Assembly: GCA_018398815.1 (NCBI GenBank)
Contig: CM031615.1
Span: 47,247,121-47,311,120 of the forward strand
Length of the DNA: 64,000 nucleotides
DNA from: Conus ventricosus
Lineage: Eukaryota; Mollusca; Gastropoda; Neogastropoda; Conidae
Reading direction: 5' to 3'
Shown here: piece by piece, positions 3,662-61,180 of the stretch
Layout: every line of letters begins with the position of its first letter
How positions within the stretch are numbered: position 1 is the first letter of the stretch
Translations under genes and position numbers: made by a program
The notes under the pieces: model-generated
The model's database searches: none
What the model was told of the DNA's origin: nothing
The model's input: only the letters and a program-made list of their open reading frames with translations

Positions 3662-4105
3662 TCTTTAAGTTTGTTTCAATTTCCGCCTGCAGTCACTTCA
3701 GTTTGAAACTAACCGTCAGAGGGAACAGTTGTGAACATCACAGTTCACAAGATTTTTTTTCCTGCTGGATAATACTAAATATTTCTTCAAGAAAACCAGG
3801 GATTTAACAATAACACACACACACTGTCATTGCTGTTTCACTAGGAAAACGGCTATTATTGCCTTATGATGCTACAATGTTTTCCCTTGTGCCTGACGGA
3901 AACTGTATTGTTCATGACTTAGTCATGTGGTATGATGATCACATCTTATAAATGACTGATTTTGCCCTCCATTATGTGGCAGAGCATTGAGGCGCATTTA
4001 GTTCTTTATCGTACTAACACTTAAGTGAAACATTGATCAAGCCTAAGTAGTGCAGACGTCTTTCACTGCTCAGGCTAAGTTTATATATACATATATATAT
4101 ATATA
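3662..4105. other. Unassigned DNA
   Basis: A/T-rich sequence with no identifiable gene; ends in a short (TA)n run at about 4085-4105. Confidence 0.4.
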
Positions 4106-4890
4106 GAATGCTGAACAATTAAGTAGTGGGGGGAAAACAAGTGCAGGTTAACAATTCTTCAGTCGTTATAGTAATGACTTGGCAAAGATTTGAACTTTAA
4201 AAAAAAAACAAGGTGGAATATATTATAAATATTAGAAGTCCTTCACTAGCTGCATGAGGGAATCATCGTAATCCCTCCTGAAAGCACATTTATTTGTATT
4301 GCCTGCTCCTAGGCCTTTCGTCCGCTGGATCGGACTCATCAGGGAGACACGGCTGATTGTGTCAGTGCTCTTGGTGTCAAATAGAGACACACCACAGTCC
4401 ATAATTCTGTGGTGTTCTCACCACCAAGGGTTCAAAAAAGAATCCAACAGCACCCTCAAAGCAGCCAGCGAAGGGAAGTAAATGGAGCAAAACACAAGTG
4501 TGGAGATGAAAAAAGTTGCTGAAAAACTAAAAGCATATTCAAACAATATAAAATATAGGGACAATCTTTGAGCCTACGCTTGAGGATCCATTCAAGGATG
4601 CAAGGGAGATAAAAAGATATGGAACAGTCTGAGTGGTCAGCTCTGCTGTTCAATAACCCAAGCATTGTGAGTGGCTAAGAATTGTACAAAACAACCTTTA
4701 CTTGGATCTCCAAAGAGATGGAATCTCCCACTGATTGACCAAACAATAGAATGCTGAACAATTAAGTAGTGGGGAAAACAAGTGCAGGTTAACAATTCTT
4801 CAGTCGTTATAGTAATGACTTCGCAAAGATTTGAACTTTAAAAAAAAGAAAAAAAAAGAAAAGAAATTCAAGGTGGAATATATTATAAAT
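4106..4890 (-). mobile_element. Hammerhead-bearing retroelement repeat, copy 1 (partial tandem dimer)
   Basis: A segment of about 125-145 bp occurs twice in the same orientation (from 4106 and from 4746), giving a 640-bp period. The interval between contains a hammerhead ribozyme on the minus strand at 4301-4353. Read on the minus strand, most of the interval aligns with the plus-strand repeat at 10005-10932, so both belong to one dispersed family. There is no reverse transcriptase or endonuclease frame. The architecture (head-to-tail partial dimer, one ribozyme per unit) matches Penelope-like pLTRs or non-autonomous retrozymes; which of the two cannot be decided here. Both outer flanks are A/T microsatellite. 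Confidence 0.7.
4301..4353 (-). ncRNA. Hammerhead ribozyme, type I, copy 1
   Basis: On the minus strand the parts appear in order: helix I outer strand GCC (4353-4351), internal-loop bases, inner strand CTCC (4346-4343), core CTGATGA (4342-4336), helix II GTCCG (4335-4331), a six-base loop, CGGAC (4324-4320), core GAAA (4319-4316), then GGCC and T forming a palindromic helix III with no loop (4315-4311), cleavage base A at 4310, and helix I returning strands GGAG (4309-4306) and GGC (4303-4301). Helix II is perfect. The loopless helix III (AGGCCT palindrome) implies pairing between two copies, as in dimeric hammerheads of animal retroelements. Cleavage after UA is permitted but less common than after UC. 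Confidence 0.8.
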
Positions 4891-4904
4891 ATAAATATAT
4901 ATAT

Positions 4905-8343: not shown

Positions 8344-9572
8344 GCTCTTCTTCTTCTTCCTAAAATACTGGTTCACTCAAAAACGAGTAGGTCACCAGCG
8401 CGCATGTTAAAAAGTAAAATAAAATAACATAAAATAGTGCGACTCAGACTGTTGGCCCCTGGAGCAAATTTGGCAACAAGGGGTCGCACTCGATATTCAA
8501 GAAGTTAAAAGCAATGGCCAAATTCAGGCCCAGTTAACAGTAAAATATTAGGGGAAGTAAAAAATAGAAAAACATCAATATGCAGATCTCAAAACTGTTG
8601 TATCAATTTTTTTTTAAAAGAGATTGCATTTGTGGCAATCTTGATGGCACCCGGCAGTGAGTTCCACAGCCGTACAGAACTGGGATAAAAAGAATGCAAG
8701 TGGCTGTCAATATTTGATGCAGGTATGGTATAACACTGACCGCCACTCCTGGTGCTACTTTTATTCAATACTAGTTGTTCCATTGGAATATCAATTACTT
8801 TAGCTCTGCCTTTGAAAAAGGTGTTAAGTTTAATAAAAGCTCTTCTCTCTTCTAAGGGTTTCCATTCTAATTTCCTCATGTTCTTCCTAGTATTCCCCTT
8901 TTCTCTGATGTGGTTCCCTGTTACGAACCGTGCTGCTCTCTTCTGAATCTTTTCAAGGTTATCAATGTCCTTTAGATGGTAAGGATCCCAAACTGAGCAA
9001 CCATATTCCAGTACTGGTCTAACCAGTGTTTTGTAGCAGTCGTCTTTAACCTTTTGGGGGCAGTCATTGATATTCCTGTGTAAGAAAGCTAAGATGTTAT
9101 TTGCTTTCTTACATACTAAATTGTAATGTTCTTTCCATTTGAGACGACTATCTATAATCACGCCTAAATATTTTGCAGCATTAGTTTCTTTAAGAATAGT
9201 ATTATGGATAGAATAATCTGATCTAATTAGTGAGCGTTTGTTACATATGCGCAACACTTGGCACTTTTGAGGATGAAATTCCATTTTCCAAGTTCTTTCC
9301 CACTCTTGTAAAGCGTTTAGATCTTCTTGTAGAATGCGTGTATCATTCTTGCTTCTGATTGTTCTATATACTAAACTGTCATCTGCAAAAAGCCTTATAG
9401 TAGTTCCAGGAGAGAGATTTCTACTTATGTCATTTATATAAATTAAGAAAAACAAGGGCCCCAGAACAGTTCCCTGTGGTACACCTGACAAGACTGGTTT
9501 ACAATGGGATGACGACCCTTCCACAACAACTTTCTGCGTTCTCCCAACGAGGAATGATCTAGCCCATTTTGA
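8344..9572 (-). pseudogene. CR1/L2-like LINE copy A (5' truncated)
   Basis: On the minus strand an open frame of 329 codons (9578-8589) gives the reverse transcriptase from GVPQGTVLGPLFFLIYIND through the FADD box (9378-9389) to the thumb (PVLEYGCSVWDPYH) and the usual C-terminal end. These motifs are typical of the CR1/L2 group. The 3' UTR follows to a (GAA)n tail near 8344-8356. The 5' end is cut at about 9572, where similarity to copy B at 21061 stops abruptly. The frame is intact, so this looks like a fairly recent dead-on-arrival insertion in HDHD5 intron 1. Confidence 0.9.
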
Positions 9573-9734
9573 CATCAAGCGTACCGTTAGACGTTATGCA
9601 ATCTTTTAAAGATGAGTGTTTCAGGGTCACTTTCACAGTCTTAGGGTTCACTTGAATGAATCGATTTGGGATGGGGTCGGCAGGATGGTTATTTCTTAAG
9701 TCGCAGATGTAATTGTCATTTCTGTTTTAACTTT
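9573..9734. other. Unassigned intron sequence
   Basis: Nothing recognised between the LINE and the palindrome. Confidence 0.4.
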
Positions 9735-10233
9735 GTTAAAATTGGAAATGAAATGAGGTAGGGAACAGTAAACGATAAACAGTAAACAAGTGGGGTATGT
9801 TTTGCTCCCATAAGGAAACCTAACACAGAGTAACTTTTATTCAAGACTGGCACAGCCTTTTAAACTTGAATAAAGTCAGACAAATACATAGACGAACAAT
9901 CTAATAGTGGGGGAAAAAACAAGCGCAGGCCAACAACTGAACTGTCTGGCAAAGATTTGGACTCTCCCCTCCTCTCCCCTCCCCTCCCCTCTCCCCTCCC
10001 CTCAAGTCCAAATCTTTGCCAGACAGTTCAGTTGTTGGCCTGCGCTTGTTTTTTCCCCCACTATTAGATTGTTCGTCTATGTATTTGTCTGACTTTATTC
10101 AAGTTTAAAAGGCTGTGCCAGTCTTGAATAAAAGTTACTCTGTGTTAGGGTTCCTTATGGGAGCAAAACATACCCCACTTGTTTACTGTTTATCGTTTAC
10201 TGTTCCCTACCTCATTTCATTTCCGATTTTGCT
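9735..10233. repeat. Near-perfect palindrome, arms about 229 bp
   Basis: The arms 9735-9963 and 10005-10233 are inverted copies with very few differences, separated by a 41-bp CCCCT-rich spacer. The right arm is the start of the hammerhead-bearing repeat; the left arm is a partial inverted copy of the same unit. Inverted, truncated neighbours are characteristic of Penelope-like insertions. Confidence 0.85.
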
Positions 10234-10932
10234 TTGATTAAATTGAGGTTATTTGTATTTGTTTCTGTCCGTCTGTGTGTTTGTCTTTTGATCTCCCTTG
10301 CATCTTTGGGTGGATCCTCAGGCGTAGGCTCAAAGACTGTCCCCTACATTTTATATCATTTGCATAATGTCTTTAGTTTTACAGCAACTTTTTTTCCTCC
10401 CCACACTTTCGTTTGGTTGCATTTGCTACTCTTCGCTGGCTGCTCTGGGGGTGCTATTGGATTCTTTTTTGCACCCATGGTGGTGAGAACACCACAGTAT
10501 CATGGACTGTGGTATGTCTCTATTTGACGCCGGGAGCGCAGACACAACCAGCCGTGTCTCCCTGATGAGTCCCGATCCAGCGGGCGAAAGGCCTCGGAGC
10601 AGGCAATACAAATATATCTGCCTTCAAAAGGGATTGCGATGGTTCCCTTATGCAGCTAGAGAAGAGTTTTCATATCTGTAACTTTTTTTCTTTTTTTTAA
10701 ATTTCATTTTCCCAGTTTCTCCATCTTCAAACTCCCCTCCCCTCAAGTCCAAATCTTTGCCAGACAGTTCAGTTGTTGGCCTGCGCTTGTTTTTTCCCCC
10801 ACTATTAGATTGTTCGTCTATGTATTTGTCTGACTTTATTCAAGTTTAAAAGGCTGTGCCAGTCTTGAATAAAAGTTACTCTGTGTTAGGTTTCCTTATG
10901 GGAGCAAAACATACCCCACTTGTTTACTGTTT
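10005..10932 (+). mobile_element. Hammerhead-bearing retroelement repeat, copy 2 (partial tandem dimer)
   Basis: A 187-bp block at 10005-10191 recurs at 10746-10932 with about one mismatch, so the unit is 741 bp and is present 1.25 times head to tail. A hammerhead ribozyme lies in the unit at 10551-10604. From about 10275 to 10680 it aligns with the minus strand of 4106-4890, but the two copies differ in unit length (741 against 640) and in the terminal blocks, so they are different subfamilies. The high identity of the terminal blocks suggests a recent insertion. No protein-coding frame is present. Confidence 0.75.
10551..10604 (+). ncRNA. Hammerhead ribozyme, type I, copy 2
   Basis: Helix I GCC (10551-10553) and CTCC (10558-10561), core CTGATGA (10562-10568), helix II GTCC (10569-10572) pairing with GGGC (10582-10585, one U-G pair), core GAAA (10586-10589), loopless palindromic helix III GGCC+T (10590-10594), cleavage base C (10595), and helix I returning strands GGAG (10596-10599) and GGC (10602-10604). 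Relative to copy 1 there is one extra C in helix II and the cleavage base is the favoured C rather than A. All nucleotides of the catalytic core are kept in both copies despite divergence around them. Confidence 0.85.
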
Positions 10933-11299
10933 TTTGTTAATATTGTTTTCACTGTCAGAGTCAGCCTTTTTAATTTTACAAAATAAATAATGGAAATAAG
11001 TAATACATTCACTCACGTTTTGTTTTATATTGTAATATTTTGATTATTAAACTGTGAAGTTTTTAGGAGTCTTTTTAACAATTAAACTAAGTTTGAAAAA
11101 ATAGCAAAGCATGAAAAAGATTCAATATCTTAAAAGTTGGCGTAACTCTGGAGACATGATATAACAGTAGAATTCTTCTATATCTGAATGTTTTCTGTAG
11201 CTTGATCAAACTCAGAACATAGACAAGAAGTATTTTTTCTGCTCCAACTTTTAAAGGAAGAACAGAGTTTTGGAAGGAGCTGAATTAGGCATAGGAAAC
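10933..11299. other. Unassigned intron sequence
   Basis: A/T-rich intron DNA; nothing recognised. Confidence 0.4.
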
Positions 11300-12409: not shown

Positions 12410-12421
12410 AACAGAGCTGAA

Positions 12422-12929
12422 GGGGCCGGAATAGCTCAGTTGGTAGAGCGCCTGACTCGTAATCTTGGTGATCCTGGGGTTGCGGGTTCGAACCTCCGCC
12501 GGGGCGTTTCGGTACAGGGGGATTTTTCCCTCGGAGTTAACATTGGTTCTGACTCCATTTCCCATACAGTCATTCGAATGAGACTATAAACCGAGGTTCC
12601 GTGTGTGAACGCATGCATAACATCTTGCGCACACGTAAAATCCCATCACCAAGTTTGGCCGTTGGTATGGATGACACATTACACATAGCATGCACCCTGC
12701 GTGAGAAATGGAAAGAATGAAGGAAGTAAGGAAAATGAGTGATCGATATTGAACGATATTGAATGGATGACACGGGAAACGACTGAATGAAGCGCCAGCT
12801 GGCAGCTCTTCAGTCGGCACTACCAGGTAGGCAGCCCGTTGTGTAAACGAGTGTTGATTGTAAAGCGCTTAGAGCTTGGCCTCTAGCCGAGAATAGGCGC
12901 TATATATAAGTATTCATTATTATTTTATT
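12422..12929 (+). mobile_element. tRNA-derived SINE between PBS and gag
   Basis: The head has a pol III A box (TAGCTCAGTTGG) and B box (GGGTTCGAACC) like a tRNA. The 3' end GTAAAGCGCTTAGAGC followed by GGCGCTATATATAAG and an ATT-rich tail is the conserved tail of V-SINE-type elements. Possible short target duplication AAGGG (12420-12424, 12930-12934). A related copy is at 23600-24040. Confidence 0.85.
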
Positions 12930-12943
12930 AAGGGAAGAAGGAA

Positions 12944-13766
12944 ATGGATGCCAGATACGATCCACCACCGAAATTTTCGTTCAAAGCAATGAGTGGGAAG
13001 ATTGGCTGGAAGATTTCCAAACGGTTCAGAAGGGCAACGAAACTTCACCAGGAGGATGGAGATATCCAGAGGGATTCTCTCATCTATGCTATGGGTTCCA
13101 GAGAAGCTGTGAAAATCCTGAAAAGCATCAAGTGAAGCTGATCCTCCTGAAACTGACACAGACTTTGACTGTTTAGTGAAGAAGCTTACTTCATACTTCA
13201 TTCCCAAGAGAAATACCATCCATGATCGAAGTATTTTCAACTCCAGAACACAGTCATCTTCTGAGAGTGTTGAAGAATTTATCAGGGCATTGCAGTCACT
13301 AGTTCTGAACTGTGATTATCAAGATCCGGATGATCAGGTGAGAGACAGGCTTGTTATTGGTTTGCGTGATCAGCGTGTGAAAGAGAAACTTCAGCTGACA
13401 CATAATCTGACTTTAGATCGTGCTGTAGAAGTAGCAAGACAGCAAGAGATGATCAAGCAGCAAATGCAAGAGCAAAACCAAGCAGCCAGTGGTGAGGCCG
13501 ATCTTAGCGAGGCGTATGTTCGTCATCAAGGTCGTGGTCGAGGTCGTGACCATGGAGGCAGGATTCCACAGCGCAGAAGGGGTTCCAAAAGTCAGCAAGC
13601 TGAATTCCCAAATGCAGGTAGAGACGGGAATGTGTGTACACGATGTGGTTATGTCCACACTGACAAGCCGTGTCCAGCCAAAGACAGAAGTGTAGAACAT
13701 GCCAGCGTAAGAATCATTTTAGCCGATGTTGCAATATCTACAAACCAGGTTCGCTTCGAGAACTAG
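12944..13766 (+). pseudogene. Gypsy gag, frame-disrupted
   Basis: The ATG at 12944 opens MDARYDPPPKFSF, a gag-like start; this frame ends at 13135. A second frame (13176-13766) carries the capsid-like middle with FIPKRNTIHDRSIFNSRTQ and a Lys/Gln-rich stretch, then a zinc knuckle region: CTRCGYVHTDKPCPAK near 13636-13683 followed in another frame by CRTCQRKNHFSRCC. At least two frame changes separate the parts. Confidence 0.85.
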
Positions 13767-13897
13767 AAACCGACACATACTGGCTAAACTCAGCGAGTGT
13801 TGGACACTCTGAAGCATGGACTGTTGACCTGGATGTGTGTGGTGATGGCCACATGACAGTCTTCAAAATAGATACAGGAGTTGTGTCACTGTCATGA
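13670..13897 (+). pseudogene. Gypsy second zinc knuckle and aspartic protease fragment
   Basis: After CRTCQRKNHFSRCC the frame runs into a protease segment ending FKIDTG, the catalytic DTG triad of retroviral-type proteases, then stops at 13895-13897. The rest of the protease is spread over 13898-14048 in another frame. Confidence 0.75.
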
Positions 13898-14048
13898 AGG
13901 AGACTGACTACAGGAAACTACCTCATCGACCTGAACTTTATTCATCATCCATTGCATACCTGAAATCACCTGGTGGAAGAGTGAAAACGTTAGGCGAGTT
14001 CACTGCGGAAGTTACGCTCAACGGCAAAGACTTCACCTTCCAGATCTA

Positions 14049-15000
14049 GTGGTACCTCAGTCAGCAGGCAGCAATCTGCTCAGCAGGGCAGCGTGTGAGT
14101 CAATGGGACTAGTCAAGAGACTGAATGAAGTCAAAGATGAAGATGTCTACGGTAGCACAGGACTACTGAAAACACCACCTGTCAAACTTGTGCTTCAAGA
14201 CGGTGCCAAGCCTACTGTGTTACTACCGCTCGACGTATTCCCTTCCCTATCCGTGATAAGGTGAAGCAGGAACTTGACAGGATGGAGAAGAATGGCATCA
14301 TAGAGAAAGTGACAACGCCTACAGACTGGTGCGCACCTGTTGTGCCAGTTAAAAAGAAGAACGGCAACATCAGAATGTGCATCGATTTCAAGAAATTGAA
14401 CAAGAGTGTGAAAAGACCACACCTCATGGTACCCAACTTAGAGGACATTGCACCCAAGCTGGCGGGCTCCAAGATATTCACGACGTTGGATGTTTCTGGA
14501 GGTTATCATCAAGTACCTCTGGACAAAGGAAGCAAGTTGCTTACCACCTTCATTACACCCTTTGGACGTTTTTGCATGTGCAGACTAGCCATGGGTATCA
14601 ACGTCGGCACTGATGAGTTTCAGCGGAAAATGGAAGAAACGCTGGGACATCTGGAAGGATGTGAGATCATCATCGACGACATCCTTGTGCATGGGATACC
14701 ATGGAAGAACATGATGAACGATTATCTCGCGTCATGAACGCTATAAAGGACTCAGGGCTGAAACTGAATCGAGACAAATGTCACTTCAGACAGCAGAAGG
14801 TGACATTCTTTAGGCATGTCATCAGTGAGCAAGGCATTCAACCTGATCCACAGAAAGTTGAAGCAGTGACCAAGCTGAGTGCTCCAAAGAATATTGGTGA
14901 ACTGCGGCGTGTACTGGGTATGATCAACTACCTGGGACGCTTCACACAGGGTTTGTCTACCATACTCAAACCAATGACAGATCTGCTGCAGAAAAATACA
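14049..15000 (+). pseudogene. Gypsy reverse transcriptase
   Basis: Motifs appear in order over three frames: IIEKVTTPTDWCAPVV, IRMCIDFKKLNK, TTLDVSGGYHQVPLD (first catalytic Asp), TPFGRF, and IIIDDILVHG at about 14663-14692, the YxDD-equivalent box. The segment after 14701 continues the thumb and connection (GLKLNRDKC, LRRVLGMINYLGRF). Frame changes near 14250, 14700 and 15060 break the ORF. Confidence 0.93.
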
Positions 15001-15770
15001 CACTGGTATTGGGGATCACATCAGGAAGAGGCCTTCAAGATGGTGAAAGAGAAACTCACAAAGCTTCTCTTCTTTCATTCTACAGAACGGATCGATCGAC
15101 TACCGTAAGCGCCGATGCCAGCAGCTATGGGCTAGGGGCGGTACTCCTCCAGATGGATGAAAAGGGACAGCAACAACCAATCGCCTTTGCATCACGGACT
15201 CTAACAACCGCAGAGCAGAGATATGGACAGATTGAAAAAGAGTGTTTGGCCAGCGTCTGGGCATGTGAACGGTTCGAGAGATACCTCGTGGGACTCGAAT
15301 CATTCGACCTGCTAACCGACCATAAGCCACTTGTCCCTCTCTTGCAAACCAAAGATCTCGACCAGTGTCCTCCACGATGTCAACGTATGCTCATACGTAT
15401 GATGCGGTTCAATGCCAACGTGCGTCATGTACCAGGGAAAGAACTCGTCATAGCTGATACTCTGTCACGCAGCCCTCTTCAGCATGACGAGAAAGATGAT
15501 ACGGATGCTGCAGAAATAGAAGCCTTTGTCAACCTTCTGGAGTCGTCAAGAACCATCACCGACAGCAGATTGCAGGCATTACGTGAGGCATCAATGAGAG
15601 ATGCAGATCTACAGACTGCTGTGACCTACACTAAGGAGGGATGGCCCGACCATGTTTCAGCAAAGCTTAGTGGCTGCAAGGCTGTACAGTCTGACCTGTC
15701 AGTGTCAGATGGACTACTGGTGTACCAAGACAGAGTTGTTGTGCCAAAAAGTCAAAGGAAAGAAATTCTC
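15001..15770 (+). pseudogene. Gypsy RNase H and linker
   Basis: SADASSYGLGAVL (first catalytic Asp), AEQRYGQIEKECLA (Glu), LLTDHKPL (Asp) and the ADTLSR end are all present in one frame. The domain follows the RT connection and precedes the integrase zinc finger. Confidence 0.93.
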
Positions 15771-16915
15771 CGGAAATTACATGAGAGTCACCAAGGACTG
15801 ACAAAATGCAGAGAAATGCCAGACAAACTGTATGGTGGCCAGGCATCAGTCGTGACCTGAGCCGTATTGTTGAGACCTGTCAGGCTTGCCAGGAGAAGCG
15901 ACCCGCACAACGTCATGAACCATTGAAACCTACTGAACTTCCTCTCAGACCATGGGAAAAGCTGGGAGCTGATATTTTCAAGTTCAAGGACAAAGACTTT
16001 CTCGTCATTGTTGACTATTACTCCCGCTGGATCGAAGTGAGGCATTTGTCATCAATGAAGAGTGCCACACTAATCACCAAGTTCAAGCAGGTGTTCTCCG
16101 ACCATGGAATCCCGGAGGAGCTCGTGTCAGACAATGGTCCACAGTTTGCGTCTCATGAATTTCTTCAGTTTGCCCAAGACTACGGTTTCAGACATCACAC
16201 CAGCAGTCCGTACTTCCCTCAAGCAAATGGAGAAGCTGAGCGAGCCGTGCAGACAGTGAAGAAGATGATGCAGCAAACTGATCCTGACATTGCCATGCTG
16301 AACTACCGAGTGACACCCCACTCCGCCACTGGAATCAGTCCATCTGTCGCTTTGATGGGACGACAGCTACGTACCAAGGTTCCAGTGATGCCACACAACT
16401 TGAAGCCTGTTGGGGTGAACGACAGAGAAGTCTGTGACCGTGACACCGCCGCAAAACAGCAACACAAGGAACACTTTGACCGACGTCATGGTGCACAACC
16501 ACTGCCAAAGCTACACCCAGGCACTTCTGTCACAATCAAGACCGACGGTGAGAAGAAATGGACCACCAAGGGCAAAGTCATTGGTCCAGCCGACAACAGC
16601 GGACGTTCATACAGGATCAACACTCCGCAGGGTGAAGTGCGACGCAACAGAAAGCACATTCACAAAGTTGTACAGTCTCAATCCGAGTCCCATCATGAAG
16701 ACGTCTTTATACCTGATGAGCTGGAGCCGACACCCGGAACATCAAGGCAAGGTGATCCATGGCCTGCAGCTCTACCCCTCACTCCATCTGCGACTGCGAG
16801 TCCAGCCTCAAGTCCACCTTCAACACCAGTCCTGAGACGAAGTGGAAGAAACAAGAAGAAACGGTCCGCTTCGATGATGAAGAATTTTAATGATGGAAAG
16901 AATGGAAAAGCATGA
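15771..16915 (+). pseudogene. Gypsy integrase
   Basis: The HHCC finger is split by a frame change near 15807-15817: LHESHQGLTKC lies in the upstream frame, and CQACQEK (Cys codons at 15878 and 15887) lies in the long frame 15806-16915. The core has D (15971-15973), D in SDNGPQF (16130-16132) and E in GEAER (16238-16240), giving the D,D-35-E spacing. The C-terminus ends in a Ser/Pro-rich and basic tail before the stop at 16915. No chromodomain or envelope frame follows. Confidence 0.95.
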
Positions 16916-20177: not shown

Positions 20178-21305
20178 AGTTTCTTCTTCTTCTTCTTCCT
20201 AAAATACTGGTTCACTCAAAAACGAGTAGGTCACCAGCGCGCATGTTAAAAAGTAAAATAAAATAACATAAAACAGTGCGACTCAGACTGTTGGCCCCTG
20301 GAGCAAATTTAGCAACAAGGGGTCGCACTCAATATTCAAGAAGATAAAAAGCAATGGCCAAATTCAGGCCCAGGTAATAGTAAAATATCAGGGGAAGTAA
20401 AAATAGAAAATCGTCAATATGCAGATCTCAAAACTGTCGAATCAATTTGTCTCTTGAATGAGACCGCACCCGTGGCAATCTTGATGGCACCCGGCAGTGA
20501 GTTCCACAGCCGTACAGAACTGGGATAAAAAAATGTAAGTGGCTGTCAATATTTGATGCACGTATGGTATAACATTGACCGCCACTCCTGGTGCTACTTT
20601 TATTCAATACTAGTTGTTCCATTGGAATATCAATTACTTTAGCTCTGCCTTTGAAAAAGGTGTTAAGTTTAATAAAAGCTCTTCTCTCTTCTAAGGGTTT
20701 CCATTCTAATTTCCTCATGTTCTTCCTAGTATTCCCCTTTTCTCTGATGTGGTTCCCTGTTACGAACCGTGCTGCTCTCTTCTGAATCTTTTCAAGGTTA
20801 TCAATGTCCTTTAGATGGTAAGGATCCCAAACTGAGCAACCATATTCCAGTACTGGTCTAACCAGTGTTTTGTAGCAGTCGTCTTTAACCTTTTGGGGGC
20901 AGTCATTGATATTCCTGTGTAAGAAAGCTAAGATGTTATTTGCTTTCTTACATACTAAATTGAACAGTTCCCTGTGGTACGCCCGACAAGACTGGTTTAC
21001 AATGGGATGATGACCCTTCCACAACAACTTTCTGCGTTCTCCCAACGAGGAATGATCTAGCCCATTTTAGCAAAGAACCTCCAATGCCAATGTGTTCTAA
21101 TTTAAGCAGCAGGCCCTCATGGTCAACCTTATCAAAGGCTTTAGAAAAATCTAATAAAATTGCATCCATTTGCTGTCTGTTGTTAAGACAGTTACTAAAA
21201 TCATTGAGAGTTGTTATAAGTTGAGTCTCACAACTCCTTCGCTGTCTAAAACCATGCTGGGCGTTATTTAAGAAATCATATTTGTCAAGATGGTCCATTA
21301 TGCTA
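20178..21305 (-). pseudogene. CR1/L2-like LINE copy B (internal deletion)
   Basis: Same family as the LINE at 8344-9572, sharing the 3' UTR and (GAA)n tail. It extends further 5' (palm motifs HGFRQRRSCETQL and FSKAFDKVDH at about 21110-21260) but lacks about 341 bp corresponding to 9124-9464, which removes the catalytic FADD box. A further frame slip lies near 20520. It cannot encode an active enzyme. Confidence 0.9.
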
Positions 21306-22091
21306 CTATAGTTTCAGTGACTTAAAAATCTAATCTGAGGGACAGATCATTGACAGTTGAAATGTTAATGTTTTGAACAGCAAGTGATAAGAGAGAATAA
21401 ATTTAAAGGAGTGAACTTTAGCCCTCACTGGCCTCAGTATCTATTCTGACAGATTGGTGATAGACACAACTAATACTTTATCTGACTTAGTTATACACAA
21501 CTTATTTCATTTCACATTGAAAGTGGTTTTCAATCTATAGAATAAAAGTATGTACTATAGCATAACTCTCCAGTATCTTCATTTAAATTCCTGTTTGCAT
21601 TGATTCAGTCTCTCTCTTTCTCTCACTCTTTCTTGTTCACTCTCTCTCTCTGTCTCACTCTCTCTCCCTCTCTCTCTCTCTGTCAATTTCACCATACTCT
21701 TTCTTGCTTCTTTCTGTTCTGCAGTTCTTCTTTTTGTGCTTTTTTGTCCTCCCCGATGTTTTATTATAGACTATAAATTTTCTGCATTGATCAACACCAC
21801 TTGCCTGGAACAGTCGTTTCTGATTGATGAATCAAAACACCAATAATTTGCAAGTAATTTTTCCCAAAGAAATGTGATCTTTGAGTCCTTTTTGTTTAGA
21901 GAGGTTGGCTTAACTTACAAGAAAAACATTTTGTTTTCTGTCTTGTAATATCATGTATGAAGAGACATTTGATAAAAGCACTGAACTGAATTGAAGTATT
22001 CACATGCTCTCATGCACACACATGCATACATGCAGGCATGCATGTGCTTACACATACATGCATGCACGCATACACACACACACACACACAC

Positions 22092-23599: not shown

Positions 23600-24040
23600 G
23601 GGGGCCGGAATAGCTCAGTTGGTAGAGCGCCGGACTCATGATCCTGGGGTTACGGCTTCGAATTTCGGTACAGGCAGATTTTTCCTTGGAGTTAACATTG
23701 GTTCTGACTCCATTCCCCATACAGTCCTTCGAATTAGACTATAAACCTAGGTTCCGTGTGTGAACGCTTGCACAACATCTTGCACACACGTAAAATCCTA
23801 TCACCAACTTTTGGAAGAGAGATAAGATAAGGTAATGTTGCTTATAGCCCAGCCGACCGAAACTTTTGGAAGAGGAGGCCAGTTTGGCTGTTGGTTACAC
23901 ATAGCATGCACCTTCCTCGAAGATGGAGTATGGCTGCCTTAATGGTGGGATAAAAAACGGTCATACACACAAAACTCCACTGCCTGTACAGGCAGTGTCC
24001 ACAGGAGTATCAGCCTGCGTACGCAGAAAGAAAGAAAGAA
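23600..24040 (+). mobile_element. tRNA-derived SINE with a nested micro-insertion
   Basis: It starts with the same tRNA-like head as 12422 (TAGCTCAGTTGGTAGAGCG), ends in (GAAA)n, and is flanked by the 11-bp duplication AGATTTGCTCA (23589-23599 and 24041-24051). Inside, a segment of about 40 bp (AGATAAGATAAGG, then GTTGCTTATAGCCCAGCCG) sits between two copies of AACTTTTGGAAGAG, so it is a separate later insertion. Confidence 0.9.
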
Positions 24041-24393
24041 AGATTTGCTCATACACAGTTACTCTTTATTAGATCTTCTTTTAATATCCTTTTCATGCTT
24101 GTTGCATATGTATGTTGTAGTAAGAATGCATACGCAAGGTCCATTTGTGTGTGCATGCGTGTGTTTGAGAGAGAGAGAGGAAGTTTATCTTTGAAAGCCC
24201 AAGGTGTGTTCGTTCATGTGTAGTTCATTTACTCAATATAGCTCAGTTTGCAAGAGTAGTATGTCAACATGTACACTTTCCACCAGATTGAACTTCAATT
24301 TTTTACTATGATTTTTTTGTCATCAAGTTAAATAAAAACTTCATGTATCGTTTTTACAAAATTGAAGTCCCAACTCTGCTGTATCTGTTTCAG

Positions 24394-24603
24394 ACACTAC
24401 CTCATTCCCGATTTGGATTCCTGTTTGATATTGATGGCGTAATTGTTCGCGGAAAGAAACTGCTACCATCTGCCCAAGAAGCTTTTCGACTGTTGACAGA
24501 CAAAAATGGAAGTTTTCAAGTGCCTGCGTTGTTTGTCACCAATGCTGGGAATTCTCTGCGCTGTCACAAGGCTCAGCAGCTGTCACAGTGGCTTGACATC
24601 AAC
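24394..24603 (+). CDS. HDHD5: HDHD5-like exon 2: HAD motifs I and II
   Basis: Seventy codons between acceptor CTGTTTCAG and donor AAC|GTAAGT, phase 0 at both ends. It carries FGFLFDIDGV, where the first Asp (residue 49) is the expected nucleophile and the second (51) the acid/base, and FVTNAGN, where Thr86 is the motif II phosphate-binding residue. This block is among the most conserved in HDHD5 (human FGFLFDIDGVLVRG and FVTNAGN). An in-frame reading continues upstream of 24394 and past the donor by chance; neither extension has homology. Confidence 0.95.
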
Positions 24604-25533
24604 GTAAGTTTGGTTTTGAAAAAAAAAAAGGTTTTCATATATTGCTTTTTGAGAGATTGGGCATACATTGATGTTGTTATTATGTACAGATGGTGAATAG
24701 AACACGTTGAAATTTGATATCTTGTCCAGACAAAACAGGAAACTGAATGTGCACAGAAAAATAATCAACAGTTAAAAGATTGCTCTGTGACTGGTTTTAC
24801 TACACGGTGCTGCTTCAGTCACAGATAGACACATGGATGTCATGAAAGAAATGCAATTCCTGATGTTTCAATTTTCATATTCAGTCTGGCATAGAGCAGT
24901 TGTTTTTGTTTTCCTGTCTCAACCAGCCAGTCAGTAAGCGCCTTCAGTTTCGTCTACATCATCAGAAGTAAAAGTTGATTTGTTGTTGTAGATATACCTC
25001 ACAAATGTGCTGAAAAATTAACGCAGTTTTCTTTTTTCCCTTTTTTGTTTTTGTTTTAAGAAGACAATGACTGTGCATAATTGCACAGCTCACATATGAA
25101 TATGTTTCAGCCAGTGGCATTCAGGTTCCTTTCTCTTAGAATTTTACTTGGAGTTTTGAAAAAAAACTTCAGTTTGCCTGAGTGGAAAACTCTCTGGTAT
25201 TATTTTTTGGTGCATACATGCATGTGCATCTTGGTGTCTAAGTGTTCATGTCATTTTTGTCTTTCGTTTGAAAAGATTAGCAGAAATGTTTTGGAATCAT
25301 TCAGAAATGTTACATTGAAAGGGAAAGTAAAGTGGAACCAAAGGTTTATCCCAAATTCTTTTGTTTTATTTTTTCAAAATTTTTTGGGTGGTTGATTCTT
25401 TTTAGGGTTTTGTTGTTTGTTTGGTTAGTTGGGTTGGGGGAGCTGGGATGATAGGTGTAATGGGATAGAGAGGGTTTGGGGGCACATTAAGTTTCCCTAC
25501 ATCCATCATGTTGTCTTAGTTTTGTGATTCCAG
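24604..25533 (+). other. HDHD5-like intron 2
   Basis: Unremarkable intron; nothing recognised. Confidence 0.7.
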
Positions 25534-26540: not shown

Positions 26541-27413
26541 GTAATTTGTCTTCTTCCTTGGGCCAGTCTTCCATTGATCTCTTCCTGTCATTCTGATGCA
26601 GGTTATAATTAGAAGGGCAAGGTTGTCAAGATTGATCGGATCCTGGATCTTCCTTTTGACCCAGATCCGCTTGAAAATTTGATGAGTTTCTCCCTTGGAC
26701 TCCTTTTATCTTTCCACCTAGTTTCATTACAACCTATATTGTACCTTTTGCATCACTGTGCCAACCAACTAACTAACTGACAAGGATGAAATCATTTTTT
26801 TTTTTAGATGAATATGGGTACTTCAGGCCAGATCTGTACCATAGTCCTATAGAATTTTACTGTGTTTAATCATGATTCTGAATGATTTTTTTATGTGTAA
26901 TTTTGCCTTTCCTTTTGTCACTTAGAGAAATGATTTGAAGGTTCTTGTGCATTACTGCTTGTATATTATTTGATTGTATTGGATTCTGAACAATGTCTGT
27001 ACATTTGTCCACCTGTCAACATATACACTAATAGAATCTTAATTCTTATCTTGGTTCATTTTATGGGTGACGTGTGTTCCTCTTCGGCTTACTACAACCA
27101 TCATCTCCCACATTTTAAAAAACACTTACAAAGATTTCAGGTACATTTTGCCCTTTTAAATGAAGGGGGAAAAAAGCACATGGCCACAAATATTACTGTT
27201 TCAAAGCTGCTTTCCATTTTTCTTTTCTTTGTTGTTAATAGAGGAGATGGAAAGGAATTGGATGTAAAAGAGCAGAGATAGACGCGTCAGCTGAAAGAGG
27301 AAGGGAGAAAACAAAATTGCTGCTTTGCACATCACAAAACTTGCCCAACTCTTTTTGAGTTTTTTTTTCTTGTCACCACTGCTTTTGTCACTATAGTTGC
27401 TGTTTTTGTTCTC

Positions 27414-27661
27414 ATGATGATGTTTATAGAGATGCCATATTGGTTCTGTGTCAGGGGTGGTGCTGTCATTTTTACTCTTATGATGATGTTTATAGAGATG
27501 CCATATTGGTTCTGTGTCAGGGTGGTGCTGTCATTTTTACTCTTATGATGATGTTAATAGAGTTGCCATGTTGGTTCTGTGTCAGTGATGGTGCTGTCAT
27601 TTTTACTGTCATTATGATGTTTTAAGATATATCATGTTGGCTCTGTATCAGCGGTGATGCT
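27414..27661 (+). repeat. 66-bp minisatellite containing copies of the exon 5 acceptor
   Basis: Units start near 27414, 27480 and 27545, with a fourth partial unit running into exon 5. Each contains TTGGTTCTGTGTCAG followed by a GGTGGTGCTGT-like stretch, equivalent to the true acceptor and first exonic bases at 27637-27662. Confidence 0.85.
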
Positions 27662-27826
27662 GTTTGGGGAGCCGGTCAGATGGGAGATGCCACTTCAGGT
27701 CCTGCTGGATGTCCTTATGTCCAATGGAAAGCCCAACAGCCCACCTCCCAGCCTCCCCTATCCTCACCTGCCTGTACTGGCCTGCAACATGGACTTGCTC
27801 TGGATGGCAGAGGCGCCCACACCCAG
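27652..27826 (+). CDS. HDHD5: HDHD5-like exon 5: cap domain
   Basis: 175 nt, opening with the last two bases of a split Ala codon and closing with AG of a split Arg codon. The product includes LFGEPVRWE and YPHLPVLACNMDLLWMAEA, near identical to human LLGEPVRWE and YPHLPVLASNMDLLWMAEA. The acceptor and first ten exonic bases are also the repeat unit of a minisatellite just upstream (27414-27661), giving three decoy acceptors at 27454, 27520 and 27585. Confidence 0.95.
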
Positions 27827-45050: not shown

Positions 45051-45432
45051 TCTTCAACTCTATGGGTGGATAACCACAACCATACGACTCGTCCTTAAGA
45101 GCTGCAGGCTTGTCTCTTCAACTCTATGGGTGGATAACCACAACCATACGACTCGTCCTTAAAGAGCTGCAGGCTTGTCTCTTCAACTCTATGGGTGGTA
45201 ACCACAACCATACGACTCGTCCTTAAAGAGCTGCAGGCTTGTCTCTTCAACTCTATGGGTGGATAACCACAAACCATACGAACTCGTCCTTAAGAGCTGC
45301 AGCTTGTCTCTTCAACTCTATGGGTGGATAACCACAACCATGCACTCATCCTTAAGAGCTGCAGGCTTGTCTCTTCAACTCCATGGTGGATAACCACAAC
45401 CATATGACTCATCCTTAAGAGCTGCAGGCTAG
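45051..45432. repeat. Minisatellite, 62-64 bp unit, six copies
   Basis: Each unit runs TCTTCAACTCTATGGGTGG, then AACCACAACCATACGACTC, then GTCCTTAAGAGCTGCAGGC. Unit lengths vary by one or two bases. Confidence 0.93.
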
Positions 45433-47022: not shown

Positions 47023-47849
47023 TTTTCTTCTTTTTCTTTTTTTGGTGTCCCAACCTCTGCACCACCTCAGAGGCAGTGCACCCATGCTGCTCATTCCAAC
47101 ACCCCCTCCACAGCCACAGCCCGGTCGCCCCACCGCAGCCCGCACCGGCAATCCACAGGGAGCAGTCAACTCAAGTGGCAACCCACCCGCGGAGACACTG
47201 CACTGCTGCTGAGTCACTTCGGGTTTAAGTGGCGTCTGTTCTGATTAACTACCCCGGACCCACCTACTAAGCCCCCTATTGACGACAATTGCTTAGTCGG
47301 GAGCCGGGGTGAGTGAGCTTCCCTCCGGGGGGCACCACCATGTCTGGCCAACAACAGCCCCCCTGGACTCGCCGATACCGTGACCCCGACAGAACCAAAC
47401 CAAGGCCACAGACGTGGAGAGGACATCAGAAATTGAGGTCACCATGAGAGCAGGCATGAAGGGCCACAGAATTTGAGACATCTTTTTATGCTGATCATGA
47501 GAATGAGGATGATTAAGATGATGCTACGGATTTCCATTTCGGTCTGAGACTACATGACAGGGCTGTACTCTGCGCTTCCTTTCATAACATATCCTGGCGT
47601 CAACCAGGCCCGAGAGATACAAGCACCTGCAGTGTTGGTCACAAAATTGGAGCAACACTCTCAGAAACGCATCCATCAAGTGGATGAAACTCGACTGTGT
47701 GGTCCCAGTCATCCCAACTGAGTCCGCAGCAAACTCAACTCTGGGTAGGAACCGGTCGGGCAGAAAAACCCACATGACTCTGATGGGATTCAACCCACGA
47801 CCTCCCAGCCAGGAGTCCGTGACGCTAACCACTTCGCCACGCGGCTGGT
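47023..47849 (-). mobile_element. Long tRNA-headed SINE, second copy
   Basis: Same family as 17108-17971. Flanked by AATATACACTATTTT (47008-47022 and 47850-47864). Numerous one-base deletions relative to its mirror copy at 63233. Confidence 0.92.
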
Positions 47850-49888
47850 AATATACACTATTTTGTATACATCATGTCATTGACTATACGCTGTATCTAT
47901 CTTTTCTCTGTACTGTTACAGACCAACGGTTTGTTAACAAGCAACCTGAGTGTGATGGAATTTAAAAAAACACACACACACACACAAAAAAACACTGTCT
48001 ACACATCTTCAAATCCTTGCCTATCTGCTTCCTTTCTCAGACTTGTGCACTGTGTATTACAATGGTGTTTGAATGTGCTGTTTAATAGACTGAATCAGAC
48101 CGTTTTCTTTAGTTGATGGCTACATTATCCCAAAAAAGAAGAGAAAGGAAAGACCAAATCATTCAAGCATAAACACCGAGTGTTGTGTGTGCGCGCGCGC
48201 GCATGCATGCATGTGTGATGCAGCAATGCTCAAGAAGCACTGAGGGAAAAAAAGAACAAAAACCCCATCCCCCCCCCCCCCCACCCCCCAAAAACCCCCC
48301 CAAACAACCAACCAAACACCCCCACTTGATAATACAGCACATACAAGCCATGTGCACATCCACCACAAAATGATACATGAGAAAACACATGTCCTGACAA
48401 AGAGGGTAACAGCGTTACCCAAACATTTCACCTATAAGTTCCCCAATGTTTCCAATAACCTGCATCAACAACCAATTCTTACCCTTTGTGGAGGCTCTCA
48501 ACAAAACCATCAATTAAGAAGAATGATAAAATGGAGAGATTCGTGTGTACACATTAAATAATGATATGTTCAGATAACACACATAGAAAATGGGTGAATT
48601 CTTATCAAAATAAATGTTCAGACATTAATTCATTGTAAATATCCAATTCTAATGCTGTCCTGTTGCAAACCCACAGTTTTCAACAACATCTGTAAAACAG
48701 AATAAAGACACAATCTCCACAACACCACACCACAGCTAATCAAAAAGTGGATTAGCTTTAAGCAAGACAATGGAATAGAAAGTCGTCTAGGTTACCAACA
48801 CCGTTCTTGCAACAGGTTACATTGTACCTTGTCACCTCTTAATCAAGACCTTGCCGGGTCCAAACATTGGTCTTTCCCAGGAAAGACTTGCGTTGGGGGA
48901 TCCATACAGGCAAGGAGAACACTGTTACACAATAACAAGTCTACAGACAAAAGCAGTCTTTTCTGATGGTAGGTTTCTATTGAAGATTTCACCGTACTTG
49001 TGCGTCTACCAATCTCCAAAACAAAATGAATAAAGAACAATTTTAGTAAAAAAATTTTATTGTCAGCCATAAATACTAGAATAATCCTCTCATCAGCCTT
49101 TCTTTCTCTCAGAGAGAGATTTGCATATATGGATAGATGTAGCCAGCGTGCCTGCATGCACATATGTACATGCATGAGGGAGTACAACGGTCACACAATC
49201 TGTCACTCTCACAACAGAACAAGTCCACGCTATTATAAACTCCAGTCCATCTGGTCATCCATCGAACACAAATACTAATCATCACTGACATAATGACACA
49301 TGAATATGGAGAGCTTTCTCAGTGCAATAAAGAGTTGATGTGACAGTAAACTCTTACTGAACTAAAGATGTGAAAAGTTCACACAATAAAGACACGTCTC
49401 AAAGTTTCAGATCACAACATTAACATTTCTGTAAATCTGGACCACTCCAGATGTGGGAAATCACAAACGACAAGTGAAAAGACATAATGAGAAGGGGTCA
49501 CCTATAGCATGCAATATTCACATACATTTTGTATAAAAATCTGCAGATTCTTGCTGACACAGAGACACACTTAAGAATCCAACACGATCAAAAAAAATAT
49601 AAAAAAACTCCAGCAATAAAGTTTACAAATAACAAAACACCAAGCGAAAAAAAAAAAAAATCCCACTTTGATAAAAAGTTTTCTGTCTGGCATCAAAACA
49701 TATAAGCCACAGTAAGTACAATAAATACAGATATCATCAAACATGTCAATCCAACAAGAAGAAAACCAAGTGCAAGTCGGAGTACTTCACACCATCACAG
49801 AGAAATTCAAAGCAAGCAGCAGTGATTCAACAACACAGATTTAATAATGGACAAAAGTAAATAAATCCAACATATACTGCAGAGTCCA

Positions 49889-50232
49889 GCTCACACTACA
49901 TAATGCAAACACGATGCAACTCGCACCAAAAGAGGGCAAACACTGTGCAGCTCATACCAAAAGAGTGCAAACATGGTGTGGCTCACACCACATAGTGCAA
50001 ACACGGTGCAGCTCACACCACATAGTGCAAACATGGTGCAGTTCACACCACACTGTGCAAACACGGTGCAGCTTGCATCAAAATAGTGCAAACACGTGCA
50101 GCTCACACCACAGTGCAAACACGGTGCAGATCACTCCACATAGTGCAAACACGGTGCAGATCACACCACATTGTGCAAACAAGGTGCAGCTCACATCACA
50201 TTGTACAAGCACAGTGCGGCTCACACCACAGA
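49889..50232. repeat. 30-bp minisatellite, about 11 copies (left arm)
   Basis: Unit GTGCAAACACGGTGCAGCTC plus ACACCACATA. One plus-strand frame stays open through much of it as a ten-residue repeat; no evidence that it is translated. Confidence 0.92.
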
Positions 50233-50340
50233 ATCCTCTGCAACCCTCTCAGGTGACTTGCCAGGATCTTTCAGGGTGGGTGCACGAGTAAGCCTTACTG
50301 AAAGAATTAAAATCAATGGGGGGGGGGGACATGATATTAC

Positions 50341-50397
50341 CTCTGTTATGCAGGCCACATACAAACCCTCCACCTCAATCAATGCAAGTTCCCCAAC
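50341..50397 (-). CDS. Candidate 57-nt exon of an unidentified gene (left arm copy)
   Basis: On the minus strand a good acceptor (TTTACCTGCAG) precedes 57 nt coding VGELALIEVEGLYVACITE, followed by GTAATA. The mirror copy is 60675-60731. I cannot name a family, no neighbouring exon was found with certainty, and chance is possible. Confidence 0.3.
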
Positions 50398-51591
50398 CTG
50401 CAGGTAAAGACATAAACACACTGAGAGAGCCTGACCAGGGAAGTCCATGTCTGCTGTCCAGAAGTGGAGGCTGTTCTATTCCGAGTTTTATTACAGCATA
50501 ACCAACCTTCTATGCAAAGTCTACCTTGTCCTCCTTATGACATTACAGAGACAGAAAGAGATGAGAGAATAAAATGACACCACAGTGAAAGAAACAAATG
50601 GTGGTACAGTGGCAACTAACATATAAAACTGATCCCAGACAGGCATGCGTCCATCAGATCAATGTGAAGGTGGGAAATGAAAACGAAAGATGACCGAACC
50701 ATCAAATAAGTCAGTGAAACTGAATATTCAGCAGAAAACCAAGTCATACAGGTTTGTCCCGTAAGCCCCCCCCCCCCCCCCCCCCCCCTTTCTCCCAACA
50801 TATACACCTCCTCCACACTCAGGCAACACACGCACACAAAATCACATATGAGTACACATACTACAAAGATCATGCATCCTGCTCTCGCTATCAGAAGTAA
50901 CTGTCCTATCAACTCCCTTGCTTCCCTCGCCACCACCGGCGCATTTCTCTTGCACCTTTTGACCTGAACCTGAGTGTATTTGTACATTACACACCAGGTA
51001 AAGAAACTCTCTTTGGAGCCAAAATATTTATGAACAGTGAGATCATATGAGTAACCAAGCCGGACAGGCAAGCAATGCTGATTAAAATTTGTAAAATTAT
51101 TGGCAAGTCAATGACATCATCTACTGTACGAGATGATCATGCTGTCAATGCAATTTAAATTTGAAAAAAAAATCATGTTTATCAACTGAAGACATGTCAT
51201 CTACTTCCCAAAATTATTATAATAGAGCAACATTAAATCAAAATATTTGACAAATGATGATGATCTTGAAGCTTTGGAGTTATCCTTGAAAATACGGTAA
51301 CAAGTATTTTGGATACTTCTCACTTTTTATATTTTTGTTGAGCCTGCTGTTCAAATCCCAGCAACACTGGTGAATTAATTAAGGGTGTGAAAATTTGTCC
51401 AATCATCCTGTCCAAAATATCCCCTTCATAATCTCATTGTATCCTGTATCCCTGGAGTAACATTATCATGATATTCACCAGCACTCCCTTGTGTCTGCTG
51501 GTTTAATATGATGCTTTGCAATTGAACATAAATGTTAAAACTTGAACAAAAAGAAAACCATCGTCTCTTCATTTCCCATATCTATATCTAT

Positions 51592-51650
51592 CTACCTCTC
51601 TCTCTCCCTCTCTATATTTCTCTCTCTCTCTCTCTATATATATATATAAA
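51592..51650. repeat. (TC)n/(TA)n microsatellite (left arm)
   Basis: Mixed CT and TA repeats, mirrored at 59427-59480. Confidence 0.9.
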
Positions 51651-52225
51651 GTCTGAGTCAGAAATCCTGGAACGTTCTCAGCCTTTAAAAACAGGTTACT
51701 AATGACAACTACATCAAAATCTATGTCTCGGTCTGACAGATGTGCACGGCCTGTGTCTACATCCAGTAGTTTAATATAAAAAAAAAACTCCCATTTTTCC
51801 CTTCTACCTTGATGGATGCAATCATGCTTTGTACTTAGATTTGGGTGTGAACAGTTTGAAAATGTATCTTTTATGATAGAGATGGTATTTATTTCAAGTG
51901 TGAGCAAAACTGAAAATGTTATCTTTTATGATACAGTATTTTTGATGCAAATGGAACAAAGAATGTCAAGACATTTCATGTTGGGCCGTCAAAATTTCAT
52001 GCTTTATTTACATCCTAACAGTATACTGGTATTAGCTAGCAGGTCTCTTAAAGCATACCATCAGCAATGTTCATGGCATACCCTTTACTTTGATATACAG
52101 CAATAGGATTTTCATTTGTATGAAGAGACATAAAATGAAATTAACAAATTGTCCGTCTGCAATGGAAAGAATTCATTTTGTAATGTCCATCATTAAAGTA
52201 TTGACAGTTGTTTTCAGAGCTGTCC

Positions 52226-52440
52226 AGAAATACTCAGATGTCACTGGACAGAAACATCAAACAACATCTCTTGCACATCCTCACTCAAATGTCACTGGAC
52301 ATACATAATAAACAACAGTTCTTTCACATCATCACTCAAATGTCACTGAATAGAAACATCAAACAACAGCTCTTTCACATTATTACTGAAATGTCGCTGA
52401 ATAAAACGTCAATACCACAGTCCTTTCACATTATCAACAG
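52226..52440. repeat. Approximately 52-bp minisatellite, four copies (left arm)
   Basis: Units built on AAATGTCACTG, AGAAACATCAAACAACA and CTTTCACATCATCACTC. Mirrored at 58630-58845. Confidence 0.85.
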
Positions 52441-60674: not shown

Positions 60675-60731
60675 GTTGGGGAACTTGCATTGATTGAGGT
60701 GGAGGGTTTGTATGTGGCCTGCATAACAGAG
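60675..60731 (+). CDS. Candidate 57-nt exon (right arm copy)
   Basis: Mirror of 50341-50397 with identical coding text and identical acceptor and donor. The duplication is too recent for this identity to count as evidence of selection. Confidence 0.3.
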
Positions 60732-60842
60732 GTAATATCATGTCCCCCCCCCCCATTGATTTTAATTCTTTCAGTAAGGCTTACTCGTGCACCCACCCTG
60801 AAAGATCCTGGCAAGTCACCTGAGAGGGTTGCAGAGGATTCT

Positions 60843-61180
60843 GTGGTGTGAGCCGCACTGTGCTTGTACAATGTGATGTGAGCTGCACCTTGTTTGCACA
60901 ATGTGGTGTGATCTGCACCGTGTTTGCACTATGTGGAGTGATCTGCACCGTGTTTGCACTGTGGTGTGAGCTGCACCGTGTTTGCACTATTTTGATGCAA
61001 GCTGCACCGTGTTTGCACAGTGTGGTGTGAACTGCACCATGTTTGCACTATGTGGTGTGAGCTGCACCGTGTTTGCACTATGTGGTGTGAGCCACACCAT
61101 GTTTGCACTCTTTTGGTATGAGCTGCACAGTGTTTGCCCTCTTTTGGTGCGAGTTGCATCGTGTTTGCATTATGTAGTGT
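60843..61180. repeat. 30-bp minisatellite (right arm)
   Basis: Mirror of 49889-50232. Confidence 0.92.

Follow-up and report, generated by a model that had tools for sequence, protein, structure and literature searches.

A minimal type I hammerhead motif in an abundant, enzyme-free repeat of Conus ventricosus with insert ends of the Penelope-like type

A short repeat that carries a hammerhead ribozyme motif and no enzyme raises two questions, namely, whether the motif is real and how the repeat is copied. We addressed both for a locus in a 64,000-nt stretch of the Conus ventricosus genome (hereafter the window), in which a preliminary description had reported a hammerhead with all core bases and helices I and II in the right order. 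Every part was found in its place, as follows.

10551..10604, + strand: type I hammerhead ribozyme with a loopless palindromic helix III (A-GGCC-U), by sequence and strict descriptor
10551-10553 / 10602-10604, + strand: distal helix I, GCC/GGC
Between distal and proximal helix I: internal loop, GUGU/CA
10558-10561 / 10596-10599, + strand: proximal helix I, CUCC/GGAG
10562-10568, + strand: CUGAUGA core
10569-10572 / 10582-10585, + strand: helix II, GUCC/GGGC, 4 bp with one G.U pair
10586-10589, + strand: GAAA core
10590-10593, + strand: GGCC palindrome
U10594 and C10595, + strand: cleavage-site bases
10595/10596, + strand: cleavage site predicted from the sequence
10541..10558, + strand: putative hairpin GACAC/GUGUC (loop 10546-10553), paired by eye, overlapping distal helix I

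The motif at 10551-10604 contains CUGANGA, GAAA, and UH, with helices I to III in the type I order. Its helix III is, as first described, the palindrome AGGCCU without a loop, in the form of one A-U pair around a palindromic tetraloop. A strict descriptor that called for UH, a palindromic helix III without a loop, and no fewer than 4 bp in each of helices I and II matched exactly two places on the two strands of the 64-kb window, 10551-10604 (+) and 4342 (minus), and had 0 matches on both strands of 396 Mb of first-order Markov sequence. The motif is real and not a product of chance. The covariance model gave a divided answer: Rfam RF00163 did match 10551-10604, but weakly, with 15 bits against a gathering score of 34 (E = 1.7 for 501 nt at a relaxed threshold), and no hammerhead at the Rfam gathering level was found anywhere in the window. 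The low score is probably due to the helix III without a loop. The stem positions of the hairpin at 10541-10558 were 0.91-1.00 conserved across 69 distinct copies; judged from its pairing, the hairpin would compete with distal helix I and could be a folding switch.

The repeat that bears the motif, here termed the A type, lies in the window as a partial tandem with an inverted arm.

9991..10731, + strand: one 741-nt unit of a non-autonomous element, GC 43%, delimited by the direct-repeat spacing of 741
9991..10197, + strand: first direct repeat, pLTR-like, 99% identical to 10732-10938
10732..10938, + strand: second direct repeat, stopping at unit position 207 (3' end without a tail)
9738..9963, − strand: head-to-head inverted arm, unit 15-240, 99% complementary to 10005-10230
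9964..10004, no strand: CT-rich junction of the inverted and direct arms, from the sequence
9732..9744, no strand: probable target-site duplication, left copy, 12/13 matching, overlapping the arm end by 7 nt
10933..10945, no strand: probable target-site duplication, right copy, overlapping the direct repeat by 6 nt

These direct repeats bear out the 741-nt unit of the preliminary description. The copy shows two types of 3' end, since its inverted arm ends at unit 240 (9738) with an extra 33-nt tail and its direct arm at 207 (10938). The 7-nt overlap of the left duplication with the arm end may be microhomology; if the whole duplication is counted as target, each end of the copy shifts inward by 6-7 nt. 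The duplication scored 10, compared with a control median of 3 and a 95% level of 6.35. The repeat had also been said to lack any enzyme, and indeed the unit contains no open reading frame for a reverse transcriptase (RT) or a GIY-YIG endonuclease; we therefore do not class it as a Penelope-like element (PLE) proper. Of the frames with 110 aa or more, a single one overlaps 9991-10731 (131 aa at 10132-10527), and it has no Pfam match. The stretch downstream of the hammerhead showed no unusual stability (z −0.96).

Other repeats and one probable gene lie elsewhere in the window. Broken Gypsy-type gag, RT, RNase H, and integrase frames occupy 13122-16915 (+). RT frames at 8589-9593 (−) and 20428-21313 (−) appear LINE-like by eye and belong to a repeat (8346-9131 / 20185-20970, 96%), the sequence of the former frame recurring at 20185-21068. 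A tRNA-like head at 23604-23676 (Rfam tRNA, 40.6 bits) in a repeat shared with 12416-12656 is probably a SINE, and an exon-like frame at 24292-24696 (+) with a match to a HAD hydrolase (Hydrolase_6) is probably a host gene. An inverted repeat of 7.6 kb, with 98% identity between its arms (47097-54632 / 56440-64000), surrounds an N gap and could be a true palindrome or an assembly artefact. Tandem arrays occur at 45051-45430 (64-bp units), 49887-50231 (30 bp), and 27403-27663 (66 bp).

The second match of the strict descriptor belongs to a sister subfamily of about 655 nt, here termed the B type. Neither this copy, which has an intact hammerhead of its own, nor the inverted arm of the first appears in the preliminary description.

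4103..4892, − strand: second, diverged copy (sister subfamily), a partial tandem with direct repeats 4103-4232 / 4746-4892, 85% identical
4306..4346, − strand: hammerhead of the second copy, helix II G-C, U-A, C-G, C-G, cleavage site UA
4232..4339, − strand: short open frame from the ATG within CUGAUGA, beginning MSPIQRTKGLGAGNTN, from the sequence

The aligned part of this copy (4191-4617, minus) is 84% identical to the first unit over 431 aligned columns, with 39/42 positions identical in the hammerhead and 329/381 overall. The hammerhead has lost one base from helix II and has U-A for U.G and UA for UC, changes that, from the sequence, appear compatible with activity. A peptide like MSPIQRTKGLGAGNTN recurs in most sister-type copies, in a frame that opens at the ATG of CUGAUGA, and the A type retains a similar peptide, its frame having been lost through an extra C. 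We take this frame as a putative leftover of the start of a PLE open reading frame. A genome scan with the peptide found no credible long open frame at the best 150 of 17,674 candidate places, which were 94-100% identical to the query; one value of 2745 aa lies inside a 651-nt tandem and probably reflects an assembly gap.

To count copies genome-wide, the core pattern CTGATGAGN{6,16}CGAAAGGCCT, with 18 specified bases, was searched in the 3.52-Gb assembly that holds the window. There were 5398 + 5191 = 10,589 exact matches, whereas the reversed control had 0, and the possibility, named in the preliminary description, that no other copy in the genome keeps the core is thus ruled out by thousands of examples. 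A simpler pattern, CTGATGAGN9CGAAAC, gave 10 matches compared with 4 in its control and was uninformative. At about 1501-1700 of locus L014 (G000:C4:95796739), one of the loci matching the simpler pattern, a hammerhead of another kind, whose short helix III has a loop (CAAGCCTG), lies beside a related inverted copy and is perhaps a second hammerhead family in the genome. The motif pattern also occurred at 9 loci in viral contigs (three distinct sequences), none of which showed hammerhead helices by eye.

The 103 matches used to gauge conservation, some of which represent one place in overlapping loci, comprised 69 distinct sequences. In this sample, which is biased because loci were mostly picked for an intact motif, CUGAUGA was conserved at 0.99, GAAA at 0.99, GGCC at 0.98, and helix I at 0.96/0.99; position 17 was C in 42 copies, A in 24, T in one, G in one, and a gap in one. 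The full pattern was kept by 56 copies and the core only by 2, and 11 were broken. Helix II showed U-A to U-G and C-G to U-G swaps in either direction, and A replaced G10582 in 5/69. An adjacent stretch of the same length, 18 bases, had 9,374 genome matches; because the core is barely commoner, there is no strong sign of selection for catalysis, and any extra conservation due to the ribozyme is at most weak.

This near parity is what would be expected if the hammerhead were dead and retained only through its overlap with a PLE protein start and binding site. Such a history, which we regard as improbable, also fits the CUGAUGA-ATG frame, with its peptide conserved between the subfamilies, and the finding that hammerhead mutants of an Anolis PLE insert in vitro (PMC11167929, as far as the available text reports). 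It accords less well with helix II, which mostly stays paired despite base changes in the 69 copies, biased as they are to intact motifs, or with the palindrome and H17, present in nearly all copies of the same biased sample though the A type lost the ATG frame.

We then considered where the copies begin and end. Aligning 24 A-type records to the unit placed 12/35 of the 3' ends at unit 193-207, 15/35 at 233-241, and 8/35 elsewhere. After deduplication (L063 is the same place as L026, L027 and L028 are apparent copies of L026, and L030 and L032 have a common flank), the same classes held 12, 12, and 7 of 31 ends from 20 insertions. The two end points are thus about 35 nt apart, within the 30-40 nt spacing of PLE-type insertion, and fall about 343-376 nt past the hammerhead cut. 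In the sister subfamily, the ends fell at B 189-205 in 17/17 distinct places, that is, at one end site and not two. The A-type 5' ends were scattered. The PLE-type partial-tandem arrangement with pLTR-like direct repeats was present, and head-to-head inverted arms were frequent, occurring in part of the inserts. Among two-armed inserts, 8/10 combined a long arm with a short one (P = 0.055 against half), or 5/6 under strict limits (P = 0.11); this count left out L032 (which duplicates L030), L055 and L061 (both with N gaps), and L051 (second arm without a 3' end), and among the eight some ends lie outside the tight clusters and L054 is split by another insertion.

Target-site duplications were assessed in 21 of the 24 records (L028, L054, and L063 were left out). 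Exact duplications of 11-13 bp were found in 5/21 inserts, besides the 12/13 match of the window copy, and 9/21 exceeded the 95% level of a control with mixed flanks, one of these nine being a plain AT run. The other 12/21 had no clear duplication, some owing to assembly gaps or simple repeats. These data bear on the idea that the repeat is plain satellite DNA, spread by unequal crossing-over with the hammerhead as a passenger. Arrays of two or three units in tandem do exist in the genome, but the A-type inserts sampled are short and dispersed, their 3' ends are clustered, and some have duplications, all of which points to retrotransposition; the target-site duplications largely refute a satellite origin, and we consider it very unlikely.

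The tandem copies and the hammerhead cut bear on a strict animal retrozyme, in which monomers cut by the hammerhead would be ligated into circles and reverse transcribed repeatedly to give tandem copies. Same-strand neighbours less than 900 nt apart numbered 15 among the matches listed, and 14/15 of these were spaced at 652-673 or 726-765 nt: seven pairs were of the B type (652-673 nt), six of the A type (734-765 nt), and one of a third type (726 nt), the remaining B-type pair being 411 nt apart. These spacings would suit a retrozyme, as would the enzyme-free unit, the type I hammerhead, and the GC content of 43%, and a circular template read repeatedly would likewise yield inserts of several units whose 3' end is fixed. 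A read-through multimer, however, accounts equally for the tandems, helix III is of the minimal type, and the unit, at about 650-745 nt, exceeds the 150-450 nt reported for animal retrozymes (PMC7229834, in the portion available).

The starts of the inserts also argue against a strict retrozyme. Among 84 sites of the neighbour pattern in the first 31.67 Mb of C1, where presence of the core was compared by eye, the exact core lay upstream at 53. Inspection of 24 of the 31 sites without it revealed 17 mutated cores, one assembly gap, and six truncations, the latter starting at −33, −32, −10, −7, 0, and +4 relative to the cut. Inserts therefore rarely start there (1-2 of 84 sites): one begins at the cut and one 4 nt past it at an inverted junction. 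We consider a strict retrozyme unlikely, although PLEs have been proposed as movers of retrozymes (in the available text of PMC7761336), and to that extent this alternative overlaps with the explanation that we prefer, in which the unit is moved by a PLE.

We next looked for a possible mover among PLEs of the same genome. A scan for GIY-YIG endonucleases scored the best 150 of 6911 candidates, all 150 of which were above the cut-off. One PLE family (L069-L071) has RVT_1 and GIY-YIG in L069 and L070, and another (L072-L074) has GIY-YIG in L072 and L073. In the latter, L073 and L074 carry a minimal hammerhead with an AGCU helix III 3' of the endonuclease, found by eye, and L072 has one of the AGCU type with an altered core base. 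A pattern for this hammerhead, which demands AGCU in helix III, had 352 genome matches and 0 in the control. By coordinates, seven GIY-YIG matches among the best 150 of 6911 have an AGCU motif about 430-470 nt downstream, and two tandem pairs of AGCU hammerheads, with spacings of 3.37 and 3.59 kb, fall within direct repeats on either side of broken PLE-like frames (the broken frames of L099 being putatively PLE-like, while a Pfam check covers the others). A loopless palindromic hammerhead is thus present in at least two decayed PLE families of this genome. A hammerhead scan of L069-L074 missed the AGCU hammerheads of L073 and L074, and its null result for L069-L071 accordingly carries no weight. 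Elsewhere, four minimal PLE-type hammerheads stand in tandem at G000:C5:95626782-95627805 with a spacing of about 332 nt, which is retrozyme-sized.

Compared with eight PLE loci from three families, a small part of the 6911 GIY-YIG candidates, and with L068, a fragment beside an N gap, the unit gave only low-complexity or chance matches. An element with RT and GIY-YIG endonuclease that shares the ends of the unit, which the preliminary description had proposed to seek, was accordingly not found among the three PLE families examined. The link to PLEs that it had drawn holds at the level of sequence.

The preliminary description had also held that the hammerhead needs a partner copy to close helix III, which is correct as a statement about sequence: helix III is one A-U pair in a single molecule and 6 bp when two copies pair. 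Constrained double hammerheads had energies of −21.9 (A) and −26.1 (B) kcal/mol. The unconstrained duplex of minimum free energy for A (−26.9) contained helix I and the 6-bp helix III, with helix II shifted. Single-strand minimum free energy folds contained no hammerhead; that of the B duplex (−30.8) contained no double hammerhead, nor did the duplex of A or of B when extended by a few 3' bases. The pairing predicts that this minimal hammerhead should work best as a dimer. Axolotl hammerheads of such a build are reported to have little cleavage activity as monomers and far more as dimers (PMC7229834, available text). For the Anolis PLE, the accessible part of PMC11167929 reports that the hammerhead cut only with added protein, that its mutants were still inserted in vitro, and that no RNA-seq reads started or stopped at the cut. 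Because inserts in Conus likewise seldom start at the cut, cutting would probably be a side step that makes monomers or circles and not the insertion template.

Taken together, we consider it likely that the unit is a non-autonomous element copied in trans by a PLE and equipped with a minimal, dimer-acting hammerhead. Tandem or multi-unit genomic copies would be transcribed, and two hammerheads of the transcript would join at their AGGCCU palindromes to form a double hammerhead, in which the shared helix III has 6 bp and which, from the sequence and the known behaviour of newt and PLE hammerheads, should be able to cut 5' of GGAG. A PLE protein would bind the RNA and nick the target DNA. On one target strand or on both, reverse transcription would start at either of two favoured sites separated by about 35 nt, a mechanism that we infer from the observed clustering of ends. 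The cDNA would extend in the 5' direction past the hammerhead, in many cases across additional units as well, and stop at scattered points, and two cDNAs would join head to head, leaving short target duplications; products of this kind are observed. The second arm could arise by priming on the other strand or by self-priming. Because the 5' ends of the inserts sampled do not depend on where the hammerhead cuts, the role of the ribozyme should lie elsewhere: it probably trims or circularises multimeric RNA, or it is a relic of a PLE start region, and the hammerhead is probably not essential for insertion itself.

Several observations from PLEs of other animals fit these steps. In Adineta vaga, the available text of PMC3846280 describes PLEs with a pLTR, an inverted pLTR, and a 31-bp tail on one inverted pLTR, with target-site duplications of 8, 9, and 10 bp and some inserts without one, and favours self-priming for inverted arms. 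In Anolis, the part of PMC11167929 available describes a tail that is the stretch between two RT start sites, both strands being cut and extended, and a hammerhead at the pLTR-ORF junction, the ORF starting at stem II, inside the hammerhead. Against the PLE-copied element stand the absence of a PLE of the same sequence among those examined, the 12/21 inserts without a duplication, the single B end site, and 3' ends that lie farther from the cut than in the Anolis PLE. In a more specific version, which is possible but doubtful, the unit would be an enzyme-free element akin to a retrozyme, and a PLE protein would insert its hammerhead RNA as multimers or circles, the arms starting at two RNA sites. 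If true, this would be direct genomic evidence for the proposed partnership of PLEs and retrozymes, a missing link, and the tendency for one arm to bear the tail and the other to lack it would indicate that both arms of an insertion begin at different RNA sites; the latter reading is weakened by the Anolis PLE, for which the same portion of PMC11167929 reports no strand difference in start site in vitro.

A family with more than 10,000 exact cores, near-identical copies, and clustered ends allows the role of minimal hammerheads in PLEs to be tested in a single animal with RNA-seq and dimer assays, and structural evidence ties enzyme-free hammerhead repeats to PLE-type insertion. That role has been called "still a mystery" (PMC7761336, in the part available). 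A limited survey of the literature on hammerheads in Conus, gastropods, and Penelope elements found no published description of this family. Repbase has non-autonomous Penelope entries, and we therefore claim no new class. Both the kind of ribozyme and the kind of insertion are known, and a retrozyme-like unit with PLE ends is an interesting combination.

For Penelope-like elements and Terminons, minimal type I hammerheads were reportedly described by Cervera and de la Pena in 2014 and by Lunse et al. in 2017. The unit has a helix III of AGGCCU (6 bp shared), whereas the PLE hammerheads of this genome, found with a pattern that demands it, have AGCU. As reported in the available portions of PMC7761336, PMC6155905, and PMC6431247, PLE and Terminon hammerheads have the same core, a palindromic helix III, a presumed dimer, and pLTR-like repeats. 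The newt and axolotl HHR_Amex1 shares with the unit a single helix III base pair capped by a palindromic tetraloop, but it occurs in 330-nt repeats and has reported tertiary loop contacts (PMC7229834, in part). Animal non-LTR retrozymes, in the same source, resemble the unit in being enzyme-free and tandem or partially tandem, with a type I hammerhead and GC below 45%; the unit is about twice as long and has PLE-type insert ends. Adineta vaga Penelope elements share the partial tandem, the inverted pLTR, a tail of about 30-40 nt, and target-site duplications, which are 8-10 bp there and 11-13 bp in inserts of the unit (PMC3846280, available text). The Anolis Poseidon PAc element shares the partial tandem, a tail of about 30-40 nt, and a hammerhead at the pLTR-ORF junction (PMC11167929, available text). 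As these sources describe them, the Adineta and Anolis PLEs encode an RT and a GIY-YIG endonuclease, whereas the unit resembles them in its structure and carries neither (PMC3846280, PMC11167929).
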